From: Longimicrobium sp.
Lineage (GTDB): Bacteria; Gemmatimonadota; Gemmatimonadetes; Longimicrobiales; Longimicrobiaceae
Length of the DNA stretch: 59,361 nt
Reading direction: 5' to 3'
Assembly: GCA_036389795.1 (NCBI GenBank)
Contig: DASVWD010000136.1
Location: 1 to 59,361, forward strand
Under the pieces are notes generated by a model. The model saw only the letters and a list, made by a program, of their open reading frames with translations. It did not search any database and was not told where the DNA came from. A program made the position numbers and the translations under genes. Shown here in pieces: positions 1 to 9,997 of the stretch (position 1 is the first letter of the stretch; each line of letters begins with the position of its first letter).

Positions 1-90
1 GACTCCCAGGGTGGAGAGCGCGTAGCGCGACGCCTGCAGCGGCGTCTGGAGAGGCTCGGCTACAAGGTGGAACTGCGGAAGGCCGCCTGA
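1..90 (+). CDS. 3' end of a cut-off gene, possibly transposase
   Basis: Frame 1 is open from the first base to a TGA at 88-90 and gives 29 residues ending in RRLERLGYKVELRKAA. Short basic tails with an RLxxLGYxVxL pattern occur at the ends of several transposase families, but too little is left to assign one. The start lies outside the window. It is followed by a palindromic intergenic repeat, which would fit mobile-element DNA. Confidence 0.4.
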   Translation, partial: DSQGGERVARRLQRRLERLGYKVELRKAA

Positions 91-165
91 AGAGCGCGAC
101 CCCGGCTCCGTAGTTTCTATTCAGGGAGCGTCCGCGCGTAATTCACCCCGCGCCAATGGTTGGAC

Positions 166-312
166 GCGACCGAGGGATCTACTCCGCGTGTCTGGTGGCC
201 CGGTGCAGTGCGCAGAAGCCGGCCTCGCTCCGGGGTGAGTAGATCCTTCGGTCGCCGCCAAGCATCGTGCCGAGGCAGGTTCGGCGCAGCGGCTCCCTCA
301 GGATGACATCTT
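166..312. repeat. Palindromic intergenic repeat with CCTCAGGATGACA end
   Basis: The left arm GCGACCGAGGGATCTACTC (166-184) is matched by the inverted right arm GAGTAGATCCTTCGGTCGC (237-255). The element ends with CCCTCAGGATGACATC near 294-310. The same ending and the same 'agatccttcgg' core recur around 12424-12470, 29184-29200 and 57901-58149. This looks like a dispersed non-coding element. I see no gene in 91-349. Confidence 0.6.
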
Positions 313-349
313 CTTTGCACAATCGATCGCAGAATCTGGTATCACTTCG

Positions 350-496
350 TCAGGCTCTGCCGGGGCCCGGCTGCGGGAAGGGAGGGCCGGGGCGGAAGTT
401 GATGAACTCGAGCGTGCGCCCGTGCTCGCCGCGCGTCTGCTCGACCGCGCTGCCGTGCCTGGTCACCGTCGGGGCGACGTAAGGCTTTCTGTCCAT
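350..496 (-). CDS. Lasso peptide precursor A3
   Basis: The product has 48 residues. The leader begins MDRKPYVAPTVTRHGSAV and ends Glu-Gln-Thr-Arg. It carries the YxxP motif (Tyr6, Pro9) that B1 proteins of lasso systems bind, and Thr as the penultimate leader residue (Thr21). Cleavage after Arg22 would release a core of 26 residues starting GEHGRTLEFINF. Gly1 and Glu8 of that core are correctly spaced for an eight-residue macrolactam ring. The tail is long and rich in proline and glycine, which is unusual beside the shorter tails of its two siblings. The start is ATG 496, preceded by GAAAGGATGTCAGC. It is the third and most distal precursor gene, 212 bp after A2, and the closest to the palindromic repeat at 166-312. 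Confidence 0.8.
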   Translation of the reverse strand: MDRKPYVAPTVTRHGSAVEQTRGEHGRTLEFINFRPGPPFPQPGPGRA

Positions 497-708
497 GCTG
501 ACATCCTTTCTCTTCCGTGATGCGGCGCAGCCCGTGGCGTGCGCCGCGAACGTTGCCAGCTCCGCCCGCCCTGCTCTCCCTCTTCCGCGGAACACGACGA
601 CGACGTGCAGAGAAAACGACCTGGGCCGGTGGGACCTCCGGGCCGCGTCTACTCCTCTACTTCACTGCCTTCCCGCGTCGTCTCCTCCGCGGGCGCTCGT
701 CCACCGGC

Positions 709-837
709 TCAGCCCAGGGGCCGGCCGCCGCGGAAGCCGATCAGCTCCAGGTTGCGGCCGCCGCGGCCCTGCGTCTGCACGACGGCGCTGCCGTGGGCGG
801 TGACGGTGGGGGCGACGTAAGGCTTCTTCTCGGTCAT
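709..837 (-). CDS. Lasso peptide precursor A2
   Basis: The product has 42 residues. The first 19 are nearly identical to those of precursor A1 (MTEKKPYVAPTVTAHGSAV). The YxxP motif is at Tyr7-Pro10, and the leader ends Thr22-Gln23. The predicted core is GRGGRNLELIGFRGGRPLG (19 residues), with Gly1 and Glu8 as ring-closing residues. The start is ATG 837 with GAAAGGACCCGAAC upstream. It lies between A1 (100 bp away) and A3 on the same strand. Lasso cores are normally exported after threading. No transporter gene is visible in this locus, so how the product leaves the cell is unknown. Confidence 0.85.
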   Translation of the reverse strand: MTEKKPYVAPTVTAHGSAVVQTQGRGGRNLELIGFRGGRPLG

Positions 838-937
838 GTTCGGGTCCTTTCGGTGGATGGGATCCGCGCCTCCGGGCGACGCCGGGAGCGCGGGTCGGTG
901 GCGCGGCGGCGGGATGCCGCCGCGGGTGTCCTGCCGG

Positions 938-1060
938 TCAGCGCTCCTTCGGCCGCCACTCGATCAGCTCGATGAGCACCCCGCGCCGTCCCTGCGTCCG
1001 CACCACGGCGCCGCCGTGCGCGGTGACGGTCGGGGCCACGTAGGGCTTCTTCCCGGTCAT
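938..1060 (-). CDS. Lasso peptide precursor A1
   Basis: The product has 40 residues. The leader contains YVAP (Tyr7-Pro10) for recognition by the B1 protein and the canonical Thr22 two residues before the cut site. The predicted core is GRRGVLIELIEWRPKER (17 residues). The alpha-amine of Gly1 and the side chain of Glu8 would form the macrolactam; Trp and Arg residues lie in the loop and tail and could act as plugs. The start is ATG 1060 with AGAGGAAAGGAAGTCAGC upstream. It follows the cyclase gene by 35 bp on the same strand, so it is probably co-transcribed with the maturation genes. This is the clearest of the three precursors. Confidence 0.88.
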   Translation of the reverse strand: MTGKKPYVAPTVTAHGGAVVRTQGRRGVLIELIEWRPKER

Positions 1061-1095
1061 GCTGACTTCCTTTCCTCTGCGTAACCTTCCGCCGG

Positions 1096-2931
1096 TCACG
1101 CGGCCGAGGCCGCGGCAGCCGGCTGCATCGCTTCCCTCGGGTACCACCGGCCCGACCTCACCACCAGCCACGTCTCCAGCGCCAGCGTGCACAGCAGGTG
1201 CGGCAGGTTCTCCACCTCGCCCTGGCGCGCGCGCTCGACGGCCGCGCGGAGCGCATCGGCGCGCACCCAGCCGGCCCGCGCCACCAGCGGGTCGACCAGC
1301 AGCGCCCGCAGCCGCGGCGCCTCGCGCTGCAGCGCCCACAGCACGCGCGCGTCGATCCCGCCCTTGCCGCGCCGCGCGCGCACCTCCTCGGGGAGCACGC
1401 CGCGCATCGCCTCTCGCAGCACCCACTTGGTGGTCCCCGGACGGGTGCGCAGCGCCACCGGCAGGCCCAGGCCGAGCTCCACCAGCGGGCGGTGCAGGAA
1501 GGGGTAGCGCATCTCCAGCCCCTCCTGGAACGGCCCGCGCTCCAGGAACCCCGCCAGCGCCGCCAGCCCCGCGCCGATCTCGTCCGCCCACACGCGCCCC
1601 CGCCGCGAGAGCGCCCGCCGCGCCTCGGGCGTGCGCTCGCGCATCCCCGTCCGCCGCGCGAACGCCGGCTCCACCCACGGCGGCACCGTGGCGGGCTCGA
1701 GGCGCCGGGCGAGCGGGCGCGGCAGCAGCGGCAGGAGCGCCTCGCGGCCGAAGACGCCGTAGAAGGAGATGCGCTGCGCCACCGCGTGCCGCGTGGCCTC
1801 GCGCGCGGCCTCGCGCACGCGGCCCCTCGCCAGCAGGTCGGCCAGGAAGGTGAGCGGCCCGGCCAGGTAGTGGTCCGACCCCTGCCCCGAGAGGAGCACC
1901 CGCCCCCCGGCGCGGCGGACCGCGTCGCACAGGCGGCGGTCGCGCGTCCAGTAGGGGAAGTGCGGACGCGGCTCGTCGGCCGCCACCGGCGGCGCCCCGT
2001 CGTCCTCCCACGGCCAGGGGTCGCAGAGCGTCTCGTTGCGCACACCCCAGCGGCGGAGCACGGCGCCCGAGAAGCGCGTCTCGTCCCCGTCGCCCAGCGA
2101 GTCGACGACGGTGACCGTCCCGCCCACCCCGCCGGGGACCTCGCCCGCCGCGGCCAGCGCCTGGGCCATGCAGACCACCGACGACGAGTCGAGCCCGCCG
2201 GAGAGCTGCGACCAGGTGTCGGGCCCGCCCGTCAGCCGGCAGCGCACCGCCTCGGCGAAGAGCGCGCGGAAGCGCTCCACCGCCTCGCGCTCGTCCGCGG
2301 CCTCCGCCGGCCGGAAGTCTTCCGCGCGCCAGTAGCGCCGCACCTCCGTCCGCCCGTCCTCGTGCACCAGGATGCCGCCGGGCGGGACGGCGCGGCGCCC
2401 CTCCCACACCGTCCGCTCCGGGTCCGCCAGGCCGCCGGCCAGGAAGCCGGAGACGAACGCCTCGTCGAACCCCGCCCCCTCCGCCAGCGCCTCCAGCCGC
2501 GAGGAGACCAGCAGCGTGCCGCCGACCGACGCGTGGAAGAGCGGGCGGACCCCGAACGCGTCGCGCGCGGCCACCAGGCGGCGGGCGCGGCCGTCCCACA
2601 CCACGAAGGCGAAGTCGCCCAGCAGCGCGGGGACCGCCGCCGGCCCACGCGCCTCGAACGCCGCCAGCGCCACCTCCAGGTCCGGCGCGTCCGCCGCCAC
2701 GGGCCCGGCGCCGCGCAGCACCTCCGCCCGGTTGTCCAGCCGCACGTCCCCCACCGCCGCCAGCGAGCCACGGCGCGCCGTCAACGGACGGAGGAAGGGC
2801 GGCCCGGCGGCGCCCGCGAACCCGTCGGCGGCGAGCGTCGCGTCGACGGGGGTCCCCGTCCGGCGCAGGCGGCGCGCGAGATCGCCCGGGAGCGACGGAT
2901 CGGGCCCGGCGGCGCAGACGAAGGCGCTCAT
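1096..2931 (-). CDS. Lasso peptide macrolactam synthetase (C protein)
   Basis: This 611-residue protein has the architecture of class B asparagine synthetases. An N-terminal Ntn-type domain spans roughly residues 1-200 and an ATP-dependent synthetase domain follows. The pyrophosphate-binding loop SGGLDSSS is at 244-251 and SGQGSD is at 348-353. The residue after the initiator Met is Ser, so the Cys2 nucleophile needed for glutamine hydrolysis is missing. That is the usual state in lasso cyclases, which adenylate the ring Asp/Glu and join it to Gly1. The context (B1, B2 and three precursors) makes this role much more likely than asparagine synthesis. The start ATG overlaps the stop of the B2 gene (ATGA), implying translational coupling. 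Confidence 0.88.
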   Translation of the reverse strand: MSAFVCAAGPDPSLPGDLARRLRRTGTPVDATLAADGFAGAAGPPFLRPLTARRGSLAAVGDVRLDNRAEVLRGAGPVAADAPDLEVALAAFEARGPAAVPALLGDFAFVVWDGRARRLVAARDAFGVRPLFHASVGGTLLVSSRLEALAEGAGFDEAFVSGFLAGGLADPERTVWEGRRAVPPGGILVHEDGRTEVRRYWRAEDFRPAEAADEREAVERFRALFAEAVRCRLTGGPDTWSQLSGGLDSSSVVCMAQALAAAGEVPGGVGGTVTVVDSLGDGDETRFSGAVLRRWGVRNETLCDPWPWEDDGAPPVAADEPRPHFPYWTRDRRLCDAVRRAGGRVLLSGQGSDHYLAGPLTFLADLLARGRVREAAREATRHAVAQRISFYGVFGREALLPLLPRPLARRLEPATVPPWVEPAFARRTGMRERTPEARRALSRRGRVWADEIGAGLAALAGFLERGPFQEGLEMRYPFLHRPLVELGLGLPVALRTRPGTTKWVLREAMRGVLPEEVRARRGKGGIDARVLWALQREAPRLRALLVDPLVARAGWVRADALRAAVERARQGEVENLPHLLCTLALETWLVVRSGRWYPREAMQPAAAASAA

Positions 2932-3335
2932 CCGGCCTGGGCGGGCATGGGGAGGAAGGCGGCGACGGTCTCGGGGTCCTCGTTCACCGGCTCGCCGTCC
3001 AGCTCCACCCAGGCGTGCGCGGCGAAGGGGAAGGGCTGCACCCCCAGCCTGAGCTCGGCGGGAACGCCGCGGCGGCGCAGCAGCACGTACAGCGCGAGCG
3101 ACTGCTCCAGGCACACCGCCCGCCCGGGGAAGAAGGCCGCCGCCACCGCCACCGCGTACGCCGTCCGCTCCGCCAGCCCGCGTGGATCGGCGGGGCCAGG
3201 GCGGACGACGGCGCCCAGGCCGCGCGCCCGCGCCACCGAGCGCCCGAAGCCCCGCGCCTTCAGGTGCAGCCGCACCGCCAGCAGCAACAGCGCCGCGCGC
3301 AGCACGCCGGGCGGCGAGGACCCGCGCGAGCGCAT
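2928..3335 (-). CDS. Lasso leader peptidase B2 (transglutaminase-like)
   Basis: This 135-residue protein matches the stand-alone B2 cysteine protease of split lasso systems. Cys75 lies in CLEQSLALYVLLRRRG, His107 in AHAWVELDGEPVNED, and an acidic residue near 119-120 completes the Cys-His-Asp set of the transglutaminase-like fold. A hydrophobic stretch at about 11-23 precedes the domain. B2 removes the precursor leader after the Thr-x site, with B1 delivering the substrate. Both ends overlap the neighbouring genes by ATGA, so B1, B2 and C form one tightly coupled operon. Confidence 0.87.
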   Translation of the reverse strand: MRSRGSSPPGVLRAALLLLAVRLHLKARGFGRSVARARGLGAVVRPGPADPRGLAERTAYAVAVAAAFFPGRAVCLEQSLALYVLLRRRGVPAELRLGVQPFPFAAHAWVELDGEPVNEDPETVAAFLPMPAQAG

Positions 3336-3655
3336 CACGCCGCCTCCAGCACGCCGAGCGAGACGAGACGCGCCGCCAGCGCCGCCGCGTCGCGCTCCAG
3401 CACCTCGCGCGGGGCCTCGTACTCGGCCTCCAGCGCGTCCACCGCCTCGGCCAGCGTGGCGCCGCCGCCCAGCAGCTCCCACAGGCGCGTCGCCACCTCG
3501 TCCAGCCCGTAGAACTCGCCCGCGCGGTGGTCCAGCAGCACCGTGCGCCCCCCGTCGCGCGTGCAGGTGACGGAAGGCGCCGCGCGGAAGCGCGCGCCCG
3601 GCGCCGGGGCGGGCGCCGCGGCCGAAGCCTGCGTGCGTCGGAAGAGGCGGAACAA
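3335..3655 (-). CDS. Lasso leader-binding protein B1 (PqqD-like RRE)
   Basis: This is a PqqD-fold RiPP recognition element of about 106 residues. The family features are a short beta hairpin (TVLLDHRAGEFYGLDEVATR) followed by helices with LWELL and a C-terminal LVSLGVLEAA. It binds the YxxP region of the three leaders and presents them to B2. The frame has no ATG. TTG 3655 has GGGGAG ten bases upstream and is preferred; TTG 3700 would add 15 residues but lacks a ribosome site. It is the first gene of the locus. Its stop overlaps the B2 start, and the promoter should lie in 3656-3899. Confidence 0.82.
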   Translation of the reverse strand: MFRLFRRTQASAAAPAPAPGARFRAAPSVTCTRDGGRTVLLDHRAGEFYGLDEVATRLWELLGGGATLAEAVDALEAEYEAPREVLERDAAALAARLVSLGVLEAA

Positions 3656-3899
3656 GAGCGTCGGGCTCCCCGGTTGCGGAAGGACTGTCGAACGTGGCAA
3701 GCGGAAGCTATCCCCGCTTCATTTGTGTCGCAATCACGCCGACGCACGTCCTCCGACACTCGTACGCAGTGGACGAAAACCCCAACGGTGTGGACGGATG
3801 TGCGTGCGCAGGGTGGCTTAATCCGTACGGTTGTGGACGCGAAGCGGCCCGGGCGCGGAGAGACTCCACGCCCGGGCCGCGGCCGGTCCGAATGGCGCC

Positions 3900-4274
3900 T
3901 TACGGCTTGAGGACGATGGCGGTGTTATTGTTCAGCTCCCAGTCCACCGTTTCGCCGCCGTTCAGCGCCAGCGGCTGCGACACGATCTCCGAGCCGCGCC
4001 GCAGCCGCGCCACGAAGCGGTACGAGCCCGAGATCGAGGGCGCGCGGAAGCGCAGCGAAGCGTTCTCGCGCGGCGTCACGCTCCCCAGCAGGTGCCGCTC
4101 GCCCTGCAGCGAGACCACGTAGACGGTGGCCGCCGAAGCGATCGCCAGGTTGTTGTGCACCAGCAGGGTGGCCTCCTCCCGCCGGTCCGAGCCGCGCCGC
4201 CCGCCGAAGCACCCCGCCAGCAGCGGCAGGGCCAGGACGAGCGCCGCCGCCCGCCGGATGCGCGCGCGCAGCAT
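3900..4274 (-). CDS. Small lipoprotein of unknown function
   Basis: The product has 124 residues. A basic N-terminus and hydrophobic stretch end in the lipobox LLAGC (Cys22), so it should be lipidated and kept at a membrane. The mature part looks like a single beta-sandwich, with a pattern such as ATVYVVSLQGERHLLGSV and SYRFVARLRRG. I do not recognise a named family. It stands alone between the lasso locus and engB, with an inverted repeat (4365-4435) upstream. Confidence 0.75.
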   Translation of the reverse strand: MLRARIRRAAALVLALPLLAGCFGGRRGSDRREEATLLVHNNLAIASAATVYVVSLQGERHLLGSVTPRENASLRFRAPSISGSYRFVARLRRGSEIVSQPLALNGGETVDWELNNNTAIVLKP

Positions 4275-4364
4275 CTCACTTCCTCCCGTCGAACCTTCGT
4301 TTTGGTGGATGATCGACTACCCCGCGAGGGGCATGGGGTGTGCCATCCGCGGCGCACCATCGCC

Positions 4365-4435
4365 GGCCTCACACGGAGGAAACGGAGCTCACGGAGGATT
4401 CTCTCTCCGCTGACTCCGTCGACTCCGTGTGAGGC
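4365..4435. repeat. Inverted repeat, possible terminator
   Basis: GGCCTCACACGGAG at 4365-4378 is the reverse complement of CTCCGTGTGAGGCC at 4422-4435. The loop contains further CGGAG/CTCCG pairs. It lies between engB, whose 3' end is at 4480 on the minus strand, and the lipoprotein gene. A transcription end signal for engB or a dispersed palindrome are both possible. Confidence 0.5.
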
Positions 4436-4479
4436 CAATCAGTTTGGGAGGCCAGTCAGTCTGGAAAGCCTGTGCGGGT

Positions 4480-5160
4480 TCAGCCGCCCTCCTCTCCGGC
4501 ATCGTCCTCCCGGTCTTCGTCCCCCTCCTCCCCGCCCTCTCCCTCGCCCGCGTCGGGGAACAGCAGCGCCGAGAGCGTCTCCAGCAGCTCCTCGCGCCCG
4601 TCGCCCTTGAGCGCCGAGAAGGCGATCGCCTGGTCGGGGTCGATGCCGAGCTTGCGGACGGCCTTGGCGACGGCCTGCTCGCGCGCGGTGCTGCCCAGCT
4701 TGTCGCTCTTGGTGAGCGCGAAGAGCACGGGCACGCCCAGCTCGGCCAGGTAGTCCACCGAGCGCAGGTCGTCCTGCGTGGGCCCGGTGCGCACGTCGAT
4801 GAGCTGCACCACGCCCACCAGGTCCTTGCTGGCCGAGAGGAAGCCGTGGATCAGCGGCTGCCAGCGGTCGCGCAGCTCCTTCGGCACCCGGGCGAAGCCG
4901 TAGCCGGGGAGGTCCACCAGGAAGAAGTCGCCCAGGTCCGAGCGCACGCGGTAGAAGTTGATCTCCTGCGTCTTCCCCGGCTGCTGCGACACGCGGGCGA
5001 TGGCCGTGCGCGTGCGCCCCAGCAGCCGGTTGATCAGCGAGCTCTTCCCCACGTTCGAGCGTCCCGAGAACGCCACCTGGGCCACGCCCCGCGCCGCCTC
5101 GGGCTGGGCCTGCCCGATCTGGCCGATGGCGCCGGCGAACTCGACCGACTTGATCTTCAT
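4480..5160 (-). CDS. engB: Ribosome biogenesis GTPase EngB/YsxC
   Basis: This 226-residue GTPase assists assembly of the large ribosomal subunit in the cytoplasm. Walker A GRSNVGKS is at 33-40, followed by the switch region GKTQEINFY, DLPGYGFARV (G3) and TKSDK (G4). The C-terminus has an acidic Glu/Gly/Asp-rich tail of about 25 residues beyond the normal domain. The start at ATG 5160 is set by homology (MKIKSVEFAG). No Shine-Dalgarno site precedes it; a tandem array of 8-bp repeats runs right up to the ATG. Confidence 0.93.
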   Translation of the reverse strand: MKIKSVEFAGAIGQIGQAQPEAARGVAQVAFSGRSNVGKSSLINRLLGRTRTAIARVSQQPGKTQEINFYRVRSDLGDFFLVDLPGYGFARVPKELRDRWQPLIHGFLSASKDLVGVVQLIDVRTGPTQDDLRSVDYLAELGVPVLFALTKSDKLGSTAREQAVAKAVRKLGIDPDQAIAFSALKGDGREELLETLSALLFPDAGEGEGGEEGDEDREDDAGEEGG

Positions 5161-5255
5161 CGAGTGCGAAAGTGCGAGAGTGCGAGAGTGCGAAAGTGCG
5201 AGAGTGCGAGAGTACGGACGTACGAGGTACGGAGTACGATGTGCGAGGACTCTCG
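5161..5255. repeat. Tandem short repeat array abutting engB start
   Basis: There are six units of AGTGCGAG or AGTGCGAA (period 8) from 5163 to about 5210. Units of the AGTACGG/GGTACGG type (period 7) continue to about 5245. Seen from engB (minus strand), the array is a pyrimidine-rich 5' leader that ends directly at the initiator ATG. Confidence 0.85.
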
Positions 5256-5310
5256 CCGCGCGGGGGACGTTCGCACGCGGGGAGGAGAGGCGCAAGGCGG
5301 GGGAAGCAAG

Positions 5311-5341
5311 GCGGGGCGCTCCGGAGGGCGGAGCGCCCCGC
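5311..5341 (-). terminator. GC-rich hairpin at end of HTH-like gene
   Basis: GCGGGGCGCTCC pairs with GGAGCGCCCCGC around a short loop, and the hairpin abuts the stop codon region of the minus-strand gene ending at 5342. No T-run follows, so the termination role is inferred from the stem and position. Confidence 0.45.
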
Positions 5342-5725
5342 TCACTCGGGGTCGCGCAGGGCCTGGATCCAGTCGGGGACGGCGCCCTGCTTGGCGTAGC
5401 GGCCGGCGAGGAGGTCCAGGAGCGCCCGCCTTGCCTCGGCGCGGTCGGGCTCGGTGAGCAGGCCTTCGACCAGGAGCGAGAGCGACGCGGCGGCGCTCGC
5501 CTCGGAGACCTCGGCCAGCGAGGCCATCTCGCGCGTGAACCACTCGCGCAGCTTGCGCAGCGTCTGCGCGCGCGGCACGGCGGTGCGCCCGTCGACGAAG
5601 CTCTGCAGCCACGACGGCGCCATGTCCATGGCGTCGGCCACCTTGCGCAGCGAGGTGCGCTCCACGGCGCGCGCGGCGGCGTAGCGCAGCGTCTCGACCG
5701 AAACGCTCGCCCGGGGAGGGCGCAT
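5342..5725 (-). CDS. Small HTH-like protein, function unknown
   Basis: The product has 127 residues. Residues of about 14-45 (LRYAAARAVERTSLRKVADAM and the following SWLQSFVDGRT) resemble a Cro/XRE-type helix-turn-helix in which the second helix follows SLRKVADAMDM. The C-terminal half is helical and acidic. The ATG at 5725 lies five bases after GGGGAGG; a GTG one codon earlier is too close to that site. The AT-rich patch at 5767-5800, with GTGTA repeats, is the likely promoter region. It could be a small regulator, but no partner or operator is evident. Confidence 0.6.
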   Translation of the reverse strand: MRPPRASVSVETLRYAAARAVERTSLRKVADAMDMAPSWLQSFVDGRTAVPRAQTLRKLREWFTREMASLAEVSEASAAASLSLLVEGLLTEPDRAEARRALLDLLAGRYAKQGAVPDWIQALRDPE

Positions 5726-5872
5726 CACGCCCTCCCCGCCGGGGCGGCACGGCCCCGGTGTTCTCTTTGTACACTATGGTTTCTTTTACACTCGGAAGAC
5801 TACGGCCTCAACGGCGTTCCAACAAGAGCGCTGATTTCGGGCGCATCTGTGCACTCTGTTCACTTTCGTGAC

Positions 5873-6085
5873 GGGAGAGTACGAAAGTACGGAGTACGGG
5901 AATGTCGCGCGCCGAAGTTCGTAGGGTCGAGGCATGCCTCGACCGTCGGATGCTCGCCGTGCACCAATACCTGGGGACTCGCCCCTGCAAGCCAACCATC
6001 ACCACGAACGAAAACGCGCGAGGGCGGCTTCTCCGGCCGCCCTCGCGCTTTCGTACTCCCGTACTTTCGTACTCCCGTACTTCTT
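5873..6085. repeat. Palindromic element with AGTACGG arrays at both ends
   Basis: Units of AGTACGA/AGTACGG at about 5878-5900 face inverted copies (CCGTACT/TCGTACT) at 6050-6083. Between them, 5918 onwards (TTCGTAGGGTCGAGGCATGCCTCGACCG) matches the first part of the large dispersed repeat seen at 32822, 41285 and 55544, so this may be a truncated copy. No gene lies in 5726-6089. Confidence 0.65.
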
Positions 6086-6089
6086 TTCC

Positions 6090-7337
6090 CTACGCTTCCT
6101 TCTTCTTCCTCGGCTCCGCGGCCAGGATCAGCAGCGGCGGCACGCTCTCGCTCACGCACTCGGGGGTGACGACGACTTCGCGCACGTCCTCGCGCGAGGG
6201 GATGTCGAACATGATGTCGCGCATCAGGTTCTCGATCACCGCGCGCAGCCCCCGGGCGCCCGTGCCGCGCTCGATGGCCTGCTTGGCGATGGCGCGGATG
6301 GAGGCGGGGTCGAAGGTGATCCCCACGCCGTCCATCCCGAAGATCTTCTGGTACTGCTTCACCAGCGCGTTCTTCGGCTCGGTGAGGATCTTCACCAGCG
6401 CGTCCTCGTCCAGGTTCTCCAGCGTCACCACCACCGGGAGTCTCCCCACCAGCTCGGGGATCAGCCCGAAGCGCAGCAGGTCTTCCGGCTCCACGTCGCG
6501 GAAGGGGTTCGCCTTCTCCTCGTCGGTCCGCGCGCCCGGCCCCTCGCCGCTGAAGCCGATCTGCCGCTTGCCCGTCCTGGCCTCGATGATCTTGTCCAGC
6601 CCGTCGAACGCCCCGCCGCAGATGAAGAGGATGTGGCGGGTGTTGATCTGGATGTACTCCTGCTGCGGGTGCTTGCGCCCGCCCTGCGGCGGCACCGAGG
6701 CGGTGGTGCCCTCCAGGATCTTGAGCAGCGCCTGCTGCACCCCCTCGCCGGAGACGTCGCGCGTGATGGAGGGGTTCTCGCTCTTGCGGGCGATCTTGTC
6801 GATCTCGTCGATGTAGATGATCCCCCGCTCGCACTCGGCCACGTTGAAGTCGGCCGCCTGCAGCAGCCGCACCAGGATGTTCTCCACGTCCTCGCCCACG
6901 TAGCCCGCCTCGGTGAGCGTGGTGGCGTCGACGATGGTGAACGGCACGTGGAGGATCCGGGCCAGCGTCTGCGCCAGGAGCGTCTTCCCCACCCCGGTGG
7001 AGCCGATCAGCATGATGTTGGACTTGTCGAGCTCGACGTCGTCCATCACCCCCTGGTGGTTCACCCGCTTGTAGTGGTTGTAGACCGCCACCGCGAGCGA
7101 CTTCTTGGCCTGCTCCTGCCCCACCACGTACTGGTCGAGGACCTCCTTGATCTCGACCGGGGTGGGCACGGGGGTGGCCGCGCTGGTGGCCTCCTTGATC
7201 TCCTCCTCGGCGAGGATCTCGTTGCACAGCGAGATGCACTCGTTGCAGATGTAGACCGAGGGCCCGGAGATGAACCGCTTCACCGAGTCCTTGGACTTGC
7301 CGCAGAAGGAGCAGCGGAGGTGCTTGTCGCTAGGCAT
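6090..7337 (-). CDS. clpX: ATP-dependent Clp protease ATPase ClpX
   Basis: ClpX (415 residues) is the hexameric unfoldase that feeds substrates to ClpP. The zinc-binding domain has Cys9, Cys12, Cys31 and Cys34. Walker A is GSTGVGKT and Walker [11 protein letters not shown], and the C-terminal sensor [10 protein letters not shown] is present. The length is typical. Start ATG 7337 is confirmed by the conserved zinc domain at the very N-terminus. It follows clpP in the same orientation, 63 bp downstream, with a hairpin in the gap. Confidence 0.97.
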
Positions 7338-7361
7338 GGCGCTACTGCCGGAGGTTGGCGG

Positions 7362-7386
7362 CCCCGCCGCCGGGGCGGCGGCGGGG
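7362..7386 (-). promoter_or_regulatory. Intercistronic hairpin between clpP and clpX
   Basis: CCCCGCCGCC at 7362-7371 pairs with GGCGGCGGGG at 7377-7386. It lies in the 63-bp gap between clpP and clpX and may attenuate or stabilise the shared transcript. The role is inferred. Confidence 0.4.
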
Positions 7387-7400
7387 CGTTCGGGATGGGA

Positions 7401-8027
7401 TCAGCGGGTCTCGGCCACGGCGTGGGCCACCTCGACCACCTGCCCGCGGTGCTGGATCACGTGGTCGAGCAGGCCGTAGTCCTTCGCCTCCTCGGGGCTC
7501 ATGAAGCGGTCGCGGTCCAGGTCCTCGGCGATCTTCTGGGGCGTCTGCCCCGTGTTGTCGGCGTAGATCTGGTTCATCCGCTCGCGGATGTACAGGATCT
7601 CGCGGGCCTGGATCTCGATGTCGGCCGCCGTCCCCTGCCCGCCGCCCGAGGGCTGGTGCAGCATGATGCGGCTGTTGGGCAGGGCGAAGCGCTTGCCCTT
7701 GGTCCCCGCCGCCAGCAGGAAGCTCCCCATGCTCGCCGCGATCCCCATGCAGTAGGTGTTCACGTCGCAGGAGAGGAACTTCATGGTGTCGTAGATGGCC
7801 ATCCCCGCGTACACGCTCCCGCCGGGGGAGTTGATGTACAGGTAGATGTCCTTCTCCGGGTTGTCGGCCTGGAGGAAGAGGAGCTGCGCGATGATGACGT
7901 TGGCGACGTCGTCGTTGATCGAGCTGCCCAGGAACACGATGCGGTCCATCAGCAGGCGCGAGAAGATGTCGTAGCTCCGCTCGCCGCGGCTGGAGCGCTC
8001 GATCACGTACGGCGCGTAGATCGGCAT
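7401..8027 (-). CDS. clpP: ATP-dependent Clp protease proteolytic subunit ClpP
   Basis: ClpP (208 residues) is a serine protease that forms the double-ring chamber docked to ClpX. The catalytic triad is visible: Ser99 in [11 protein letters not shown], His124 in IMLHQPSGG and Asp173 in DRDRFMS. The glycine-rich SPGGSVYAG segment is intact. Start ATG 8027 ([15 protein letters not shown]) fits the family; longer in-frame extension is not needed. The order tig-clpP-clpX is the classic arrangement. Confidence 0.97.
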
Positions 8028-8122
8028 GGTGCCTCGTTTTCCGTCTCTCGGGGTTTTCCGCTCTTGCCCCCACGCTCCCGGCGCGGCGCGCCTCGCGTAC
8101 ACCGCCCGGGGCGGCGGGTTCG

Positions 8123-9421
8123 TCAGCCCAGCGTGTTCTGCTGCCGGAGCCAGTCGAACACCTTGTCCTCGGTGATCTCGGCCTCCAGCGCCTGCATCTG
8201 CCCGCGCTTCTCCAGCTCCAGCCACACGTCGCTCTCGGTGCGCCCCTGCGCCCGGGCGATCCGCTCCACGCGCTCGTCCACCTCGTCCTGCGTGGCGCGC
8301 AGCCCCTCGCGGTCGGCCAGGTGCTCGATCACCAGGATGCGCTTGAGCGCGGCCTCGGCCTGCGGGCGCATGATCTGGCGCAACTGCGAGATCCGTTCCG
8401 CCTGCTCGGGGGTGGGCTCCGGCCGCTTCCCGCCGCGGTCGGGGTCCAGGCCCATCATGAAGTCCAGGTAGCGCGCCACCATCGACTCGGGGACCTCGAT
8501 GGGGTTGGCCTCGACGATCTGCCCCACCAGGGCGTCGCGCACGGCCTGCTCGGCGCGGCGGCGGGCGTCGTCCTGCAGGTCGGCGCGCACGCGGGCCCTG
8601 AGCGCCTCCAGGGTGTCGAACTCGCCCAGCGACCGCGCGAGCTCGTCGTCGAGCGCGGGGAGCTCGCGGCGGCGCACCTCGTCCAGCCGGATGCGCATCT
8701 TCTGCGTCTGCCCGCGCAGCTCCTCCTCCACGTAGTCGTCGGGGAAGGTGACGTCGAACTCGCGCTCCTCGCCGGGGAGGAGCTGCATGATGGCGCGCTC
8801 GATCGGCTCGATGGCCTGCCCCTCGCCCAGCGCGAAGCGGTACGGCTGCGGCTCGGCGTCCTCCTGGTCGAGCGCGGTGATCTCCACCACCACCTCGTCG
8901 CCCTCCCCGGGGCTCGCGCCCTCGACGGGGTGCAGGGCGGCGCGCTCGGCGCGCAGCCGCTCCAGCACGGCGTCCACCTCGGCGTCGCCCACCTGCTCGG
9001 AGGGGCGGGGGACCACGAAGCCGCCGGTGCGCGCCAGGGAGAGCTGGGGCTGCACCTCGAACTCCACGTCGTAGTGCAGCTCGCCGCCCTGGCCGTGGTA
9101 GTGGAGGTTCTGCACCTCGCCCTGGTTGATCGGCTGCAGTCCCTGGCTGTCGAGCGCTTCCCGGTAGGTGTCCTGGATCACCTTCTCGACGGTCTGCTGC
9201 TCGATGGCCGCGCCGAACTGCTTCTCGACCAGCCCCTCGGGGATCTTCCCCTTGCGGAAGCCGGGCATGCGCACGTTGCGCGCGTACTGCGCGGCCACCG
9301 AGCGGCGGATCTTCTGCACGCGCTCGCCCGGGACCACGATGGAGAGGCGCCGGCTCGACGACGAGGGCTCGCTGACGGTGACGGTGAGGTCGGTGCCGCT
9401 GGTGGTGGTTTCCGCTGCCAT
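8123..9421 (-). CDS. tig: Trigger factor, ribosome-bound chaperone
   Basis: Trigger factor (432 residues) folds nascent chains at the ribosome exit tunnel. The N-terminal ribosome-binding domain carries the signature [13 protein letters not shown] at about 49-61. A central FKBP-like domain has [16 protein letters not shown], and a helical C-terminal arm follows. Start ATG 9421 is 28 codons inside the open frame; the extra upstream part overlaps the tRNA-Leu gene and is not coding. Two other neighbours on this strand, clpP and clpX, complete a folding/degradation cluster. Confidence 0.96.
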
Positions 9422-9466
9422 TCCGGATCTATCTCGCGCTTGCTTGCGGCCAGGAAGAACGGGGAG

Positions 9467-9547
9467 TGCGAAAGGGGGGACTCGAACCCCCACGGCCGGA
9501 GCCACCAGATCCTAAGTCTGGCGCGTCTACCATTCCGCCACTTTCGC
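9467..9547 (-). tRNA. tRNA-Leu (UAG)
   Basis: The acceptor stem GCGAAAG pairs with CTTTCGC. The T-arm GGGGGTTCGAGTCCCCC and an anticodon arm CCAGACTTAGGATCTGG give anticodon UAG. A variable arm with a GC stem (GTGGCTCCGGCCG) marks a class II tRNA. The discriminator base is A and no CCA is encoded. About 81 nt. Confidence 0.93.
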
Positions 9548-9997
9548 CCGAAACGAACCGCAAGATACAGCCGGGGCGACGGCGAGGTCAACCGAAAGGC
9601 ACGCCGGGTAACGAAAGGCGCGGCAACGCCCTCGCGCCGTCCACGGTGGATCCCCAGGCGTGCGTAGGCCGAGGGTGCGAAGTGCGAAGTGCTCCCCGGC
9701 GGACTCCGGCGCGGCGGCCGGGGGCCCTCTCCCTGGCGCCCGAGGCGCCTGTCCCTCCCCCAAAACAGCCTGGGGGAGGGACCTCGGCGCTTCGCGCGAC
9801 GAACCCGAGCGCGGGACGACGTGGGGTGCGCGGTTGAAGCCTCGCGGGGTTTGCGAGGCTTTCCGTGGTTCCAGCGGGTGTCTTCAGGCACTCGCGCCGA
9901 AACGGCGATCGCCGCGAGAGAAGCGTGGGCTCGCGGCGACCGGGTGTCCTGGGCCTCGCCGCGTACGGCCGCGCGGCACGGCGGACGGGGCCCGGGG
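9548..9997. other. Non-coding gap with stem-loop repeat
   Basis: No convincing gene is seen. Around 9753-9782 a palindrome of the form GTCCCTCCCCCA/TGGGGGAGGGAC is present. A stem-loop AAGCCTCGC...GCGAGGCTT at 9837-9861 recurs at 11586-11610. Both may be dispersed repeats. Confidence 0.5.
9836..9863. repeat. Stem-loop GAAGCCTCGCG repeat, copy 1
   Basis: A perfect nine-base stem (AAGCCTCGC/GCGAGGCTT) with a seven-base loop is followed by TTTC. Copy 2 is at 11586-11611, and both are preceded by GTTG. It could act as a terminator. Confidence 0.55.

Follow-up and report, generated by a model that had tools for sequence, protein, structure and literature searches.

Three tandem precursor genes in a predicted minimal class II lasso peptide cluster of Longimicrobium

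Six genes near a contig end

We analysed a 59,361-nucleotide stretch of DNA from Longimicrobium sp., referred to here as the window. Six lasso-type genes, all on the minus strand, occupy positions 3655-350 in the order B1-B2-C-A1-A2-A3. This is the place and the order, with three separate precursor genes distal to the enzymes, that had been claimed in an original prediction for this DNA. The genes are as follows.

3335..3655, minus strand: B1, PqqD-like RiPP recognition element (RRE), with a TTG start at 3655; matches PF05402, TfuB1 and TbiB1
2928..3335, minus strand: B2, transglutaminase-like leader peptidase; matches NF033537 and PF13471, with Cys76 and His108 invariant
1096..2931, minus strand: C, asparagine-synthetase-like lasso cyclase without Cys2; matches PF00733, and NF033535 below cut-off; carries SGGLDS
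938..1060, minus strand: A1 precursor, predicted core GRRGVLIELIEWRPKER, predicted ring Gly1-Glu8; NF033521 below cut-off
709..837, minus strand: A2 precursor, predicted core GRGGRNLELIGFRGGRPLG, predicted ring Gly1-Glu8; NF033521 just below cut-off
350..496, minus strand: A3 precursor, predicted core GEHGRTLEFINFRPGPPFPQPGPGRA, predicted ring Gly1-Glu8; NF033521 above cut-off, with core counterparts in genomes G011 and G012

All six reading frames are intact. The TTG start of B1 is backed by the N-termini of its orthologues, which have a similar M-x-x-[LW]-[FL]-R-[RK] stretch. The start codon of B2, either the ATG at 3335 or the GTG at 3338, overlaps the stop codon of B1, and the ATG start of C overlaps that of B2. 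B1, B2 and C overlap in this way and are probably translationally coupled. Each precursor gene is preceded by its own Shine-Dalgarno sequence of the AAAGGA type (AGGAAAGGAAG, GAAAGGA and AGAAAGGA for A1, A2 and A3, respectively) and should therefore be translatable independently of the enzymes; the third-position GC of the three genes (0.90-0.95) is similar to that of the enzyme genes. Past A3, 349 bases of the contig remain. Since the window is the whole contig, the region beyond base 1 lies outside view, and a further precursor could be present there.

The three enzymes make up the complete maturation set that had been proposed. B1 matches Pfam PF05402 at 64.4 bits, and the solved structures closest to it are both lasso RREs (TfuB1, E 1.7e-9; TbiB1, E 5.4e-9); the RRE of a lasso cluster, which may stand alone or be fused to the peptidase, is here a separate protein. 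B2 scores 97.6 bits against the NCBIfam lasso_biosyn_B2 model NF033537 (cut-off 33) and 101.9 bits against Pfam PF13471, and a comparison with solved structures gave no significant match. The catalytic Cys and His expected of a lasso peptidase are found as Cys76 and His108, which are invariant in 25 aligned B2 sequences. The third catalytic residue, at the position expected from McjB, is Glu or Asp in the same alignment, so that Asp is not constant.

C matches Pfam PF00733 at 135.7 bits, and its Pfam match to GATase_7 begins only at profile position 15. Among NCBIfam models it fits best the one for lasso cyclases, NF033535, a narrow curated model of the 'exception' type, with 231 bits against a cut-off of 525. 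The absence of Cys2 had been predicted correctly, as the N-terminus reads MSAFVCAAG and residue 2 is Ser. An alignment of 27 C sequences shows no variation in the ATP motif SGG-x-DS. An intact ATP motif without Cys2, as in a lasso cyclase, is thus present, though the NF033535 score is sub-cut-off; with this reservation for C, the profile comparison, one of the checks that could have refuted the original prediction, gave matches for all three enzymes. We also observed that a Cys at residue 6 (F-x-C; C residues 1-6, window 2914-2931) is retained in the close cyclase orthologues, which lack Cys2.

All three precursors have a KPYVAP...HG...T-x-G leader and junction, with Thr at position -2, Gly1 and Glu8, in keeping with the leader motif, the Thr(-2), the usual Gly at residue 1 and the Asp or Glu at core positions 7-9 of lasso precursors. 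Against the lasso leader model NF033521 (cut-off 19), A1, A2 and A3 score 14.1, 18.0 and 20.0 bits. The pattern YxxP...T-x-G...D/E occurs three times in the 59-kb window, whereas 100 windows simulated with a first-order Markov model contain it 0.04 times on average and never more than once; the pattern was written after such precursors had been seen, and this is a check against chance and not a blind test. When a profile of ten aligned precursors, with those of genome G001 left out, was compared with all PDB chains, the two best matches were TfuA (E 0.004) and TbiA (E 0.015), the leader peptides bound by TfuB1 and TbiB1 in their solved complexes, and the match falls in the leader part of the profile. 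A search of solved structures with the A3 core returned only proline-rich or weak chance matches, and a profile search of the family's genomes for orphan precursors found only weak matches (E > 0.1) outside clusters.

Gene order in related clusters

The closest clusters come from other Longimicrobiaceae. Cyclases of genomes G017, G005, G011 and G012 are 57-66% identical to the C of the window and belong to clusters in which B1-B2-C is followed by one to three precursors. In G001, from a genus that did not contribute to the precursor profile, this profile finds a tandem of four (E 2e-21 to 2e-10; cores GNHGRALELINFRPGHP, GNGFRHVEKIGFRNGQP, GNFGRRAEFINFRFGPI and GNFGRLLEFINFRLGLP), the outermost of which is cut by the contig end. 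An E[LF]IN[FWY] core motif is found in most of these five clusters. The clusters are alike in their B1-B2-C-A order where contigs allow it to be seen, and differ from the window in having between one and four precursors, as against three, and in lying at different genomic sites.

A search of 395 Gemmatimonadota genomes found 21, besides that of the window, with a best cyclase match below 1e-85, and one cluster was counted for each. A recognisable precursor is present in 18 of these clusters, in each case downstream of C and never upstream; of the remaining three, two end at a contig edge and one lacks the motif. We also collected 66 cyclase loci from several phyla, a sample that is biased in being gathered by similarity to the window's cyclase, in which a few pattern matches are due to chance and two loci (L005 and L097) appear to be the same sequence. 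Candidate precursors are only downstream in 38 of these loci, on both sides in 5, only upstream in 2 and absent from 21, of which 11 sit at a contig edge. Precursor-first loci do occur in this sample (L032 and L088).

The same order is found in published clusters from acidobacterial soil DNA, BGC 44.1 (D1-D2-B1-B2-C-A) and BGC 482.1 (B1-kinase-B2-C-A1-A2), which share with the window the split B1 and B2, the cyclase and the terminal position of the precursors (PMC9064862). These clusters, which we liken to the window by gene order, come from Acidobacteria rather than Gemmatimonadota, carry one or two precursors where the window has three, and include ABC transporter genes (D1-D2 in BGC 44.1) or a kinase gene (BGC 482.1) where none is recognised beside the window's cluster. 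For these soil clusters of like order, E. coli as expression host gave no detectable peptide, and neither did Burkholderia, used for one of them (PMC9064862). From the family of the window itself, antiSMASH has called a lassopeptide cluster without a similar known cluster in the strain CB-286315 of Longimicrobium terrae, published as type and position only (PMC7291104).

The fusilassin/fuscanodin (Tfu) and Tbi systems, with RRE-leader complexes 6jx3 and 5v1u, have a split B1 that belongs to the same family, together with a YxxP leader, and their cores differ from those of the window. The Tfu cluster has the precursor-first order.

The B1-B2-C-A order is therefore a known one, being evident in the published soil clusters and in the relatives' loci. 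The original prediction had implied that distal precursors are an oddity, and this does not hold up: precursors distal to C are the normal order in this cyclase branch, an order that recurs in other phyla and is already in print (PMC9064862). 'Precursor first' is accordingly unsafe as a search rule.

The place of the cluster in the genome is less constant than its internal order. The genes clpX and engB adjoin one another in most of the family's genomes. The G005 cluster is placed between them, and the window's cluster sits beyond engB and a lipoprotein-like gene, whereas in G011, G012 and G017 no lasso genes lie between or just after clpX and engB and the clusters are found elsewhere. Because orthologous clusters occupy these differing places, the cluster has changed sites with its order intact. 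This housekeeping block is near the cluster in two genera, at different points (window 3900-7337; locus L073, 4235-9848).

The predicted pathway and its alternatives

We interpret the locus, with a probability of about 0.9, as a class II lasso peptide cluster that is minimal but complete and has three tandem precursors, a reading supported at the sequence level by the genes, their motifs, their orthology and their order. In lasso biosynthesis an RRE binds the leader, the B2 peptidase cuts it off and the cyclase closes the core by way of an acyl adenylate. By analogy, B1 would bind the KPYxxP...HG leader and deliver the precursor to B2, which would cleave after the residue following Thr(-2); C would then activate Glu8 with ATP and link it to the amine of Gly1 around the folded tail. 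The output would be three lasso peptides, each with a ring of 8 residues, whose predicted tails have 9, 11 and 18 residues and whose predicted monoisotopic masses, at one water lost per core, are 2088.2068 (A1), 1963.0976 (A2) and 2812.4309 (A3). We infer cleavage site, ring closure, threading and product in this way, and any target or activity is likewise conjectural. Counting against this reading are the score of C under the NF033535 cut-off, the variable Glu or Asp at the third catalytic position of B2 and the negative expression results for the soil clusters of like order.

A specific target is suggested by the ring pattern G-x-x-G-x-x-x-E, which is found in nine of ten aligned cores, the exception being where Gly4 is replaced; the cores have Gly1, Gly4 and Glu8 in common with microcin J25, klebsidin and ubonodin. 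The products might then be RNA polymerase inhibitors of this type, and among the known targets of lasso antibiotics RNA polymerase is the commonest (PMC6784204). However, ubonodin and microcin J25 depend critically on Tyr9 and on a second Tyr close to the C-terminus for the inhibition of RNA polymerase (PMC10037499), whereas nearly all cores have Leu or Phe at position 9, the tails have no corresponding Tyr, and the cores of the window, with Leu or Phe at 9, contain no Tyr at all. Because both Tyr residues are missing, a microcin J25-type target is very unlikely, and we rejected it as the main reading.

The cluster could also be decayed or silent and yield no product. A scan of window positions 1-4500 found no promoter-like site with a sigma-70 consensus, which is expected to work poorly in this phylum, and one terminator-like site, below the shuffle mean of 1.4; nothing in this region therefore accounts for regulation of the precursors. 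Among several kilobases of neighbours, limited on one side by the contig end, no exporter or transporter, immunity, isopeptidase or kinase gene was recognised, and the lack of an adjoining transporter would fit a silent cluster. However, the six intact frames, the coding-like third-position GC, the clear ribosome-binding sites, the conservation of motifs in all enzymes and the retention of orthologues in several species and genera make decay very unlikely as well. Least credible of all is a reading in which C belongs to another pathway, as an asparagine or beta-lactam-type synthetase, and has no relation to the small genes, since, although its solved relatives are a hydroxyamidotransferase, a beta-lactam synthetase and asparagine synthetases, C has no Cys2, has a degenerate glutaminase domain and adjoins lasso-specific B1, B2 and YxxP precursors in relatives from several phyla.

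Lassomycin, another lasso peptide, targets ClpC1 (PMC6784204). A functional link between the window's cluster and the neighbouring clpX was considered and judged weak, because the orthologous clusters in G011, G012 and G017 are not at clpX.

As a lasso cluster, the locus would add to the known lasso peptides a Gly1-Glu8 family that shares an E[LF]IN[FW]R-type motif and comes from a little-studied phylum, and would pair one enzyme set with three predicted products of exact mass. It leaves the understanding of lasso biosynthesis unchanged.

Precursor divergence and further lasso loci

Leaders and cores of the precursors appear to have diverged at different rates. Within the window, the leaders of A1 and A2 are 89% identical and their cores 54% (first 13 residues), with dN of 0.05 and 0.49, respectively. 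By contrast, A3 and its counterparts in G011 and G012 are 85% identical in the core and 61% in the leader, and the A3-type precursors of G011 and G012 have cores identical over 13 residues and leaders 78% identical. This contrast, which comes from stretches of 13-18 codons in three genomes, merely hints that A3-type cores (GEHGR[T/A]LE[L/F]INFRPG) vary less from species to species than the leaders attached to them, with the reverse for A1 and A2 within the window, and suggests one constant product accompanied by variable ones. That purifying selection in Longimicrobiaceae preserves one 'constant' lasso peptide, GEHGR[T/A]LE[L/F]INFRPG..., alongside tandem 'variable' peptides produced by the same enzyme set is a speculative extension that we consider doubtful; if true, the constant peptide would imply a conserved target.

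The genome of the window has two further loci of this kind. A second lasso cluster (L081, G000:C86:6000-22000, ~6100-9660, minus strand) has the order B1-B2-A-C-A-A, and its cores have Asp8 followed by a Cys-Gly-Cys stretch, for example GTAGVNTDACGCSVPR.... A third, lasso-type cluster (L082, G000:C71:10000-25000, ~6850-9870, plus strand) has the order B1-B2-C-A and a predicted core that begins with Cys (CGASAPLDGG...).

Other precursor types occur among relatives. In class relatives (L098, L099, L100, L102, L104 and L105), lasso-type precursors downstream of C have predicted cores without Gly1, which begin with Asn, Val, Gln, Met, Ala and His, and a conserved G-[FY]-x-L at the end; these are possibly a distinct subfamily. 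Candidate precursors in G013 and G014 (L076 ~10143 and L077 ~10766) lie downstream of a distant cyclase and have a leader-like WHTPVVEEVPFTRTE start, a leader type unlike that of the YxxP family.
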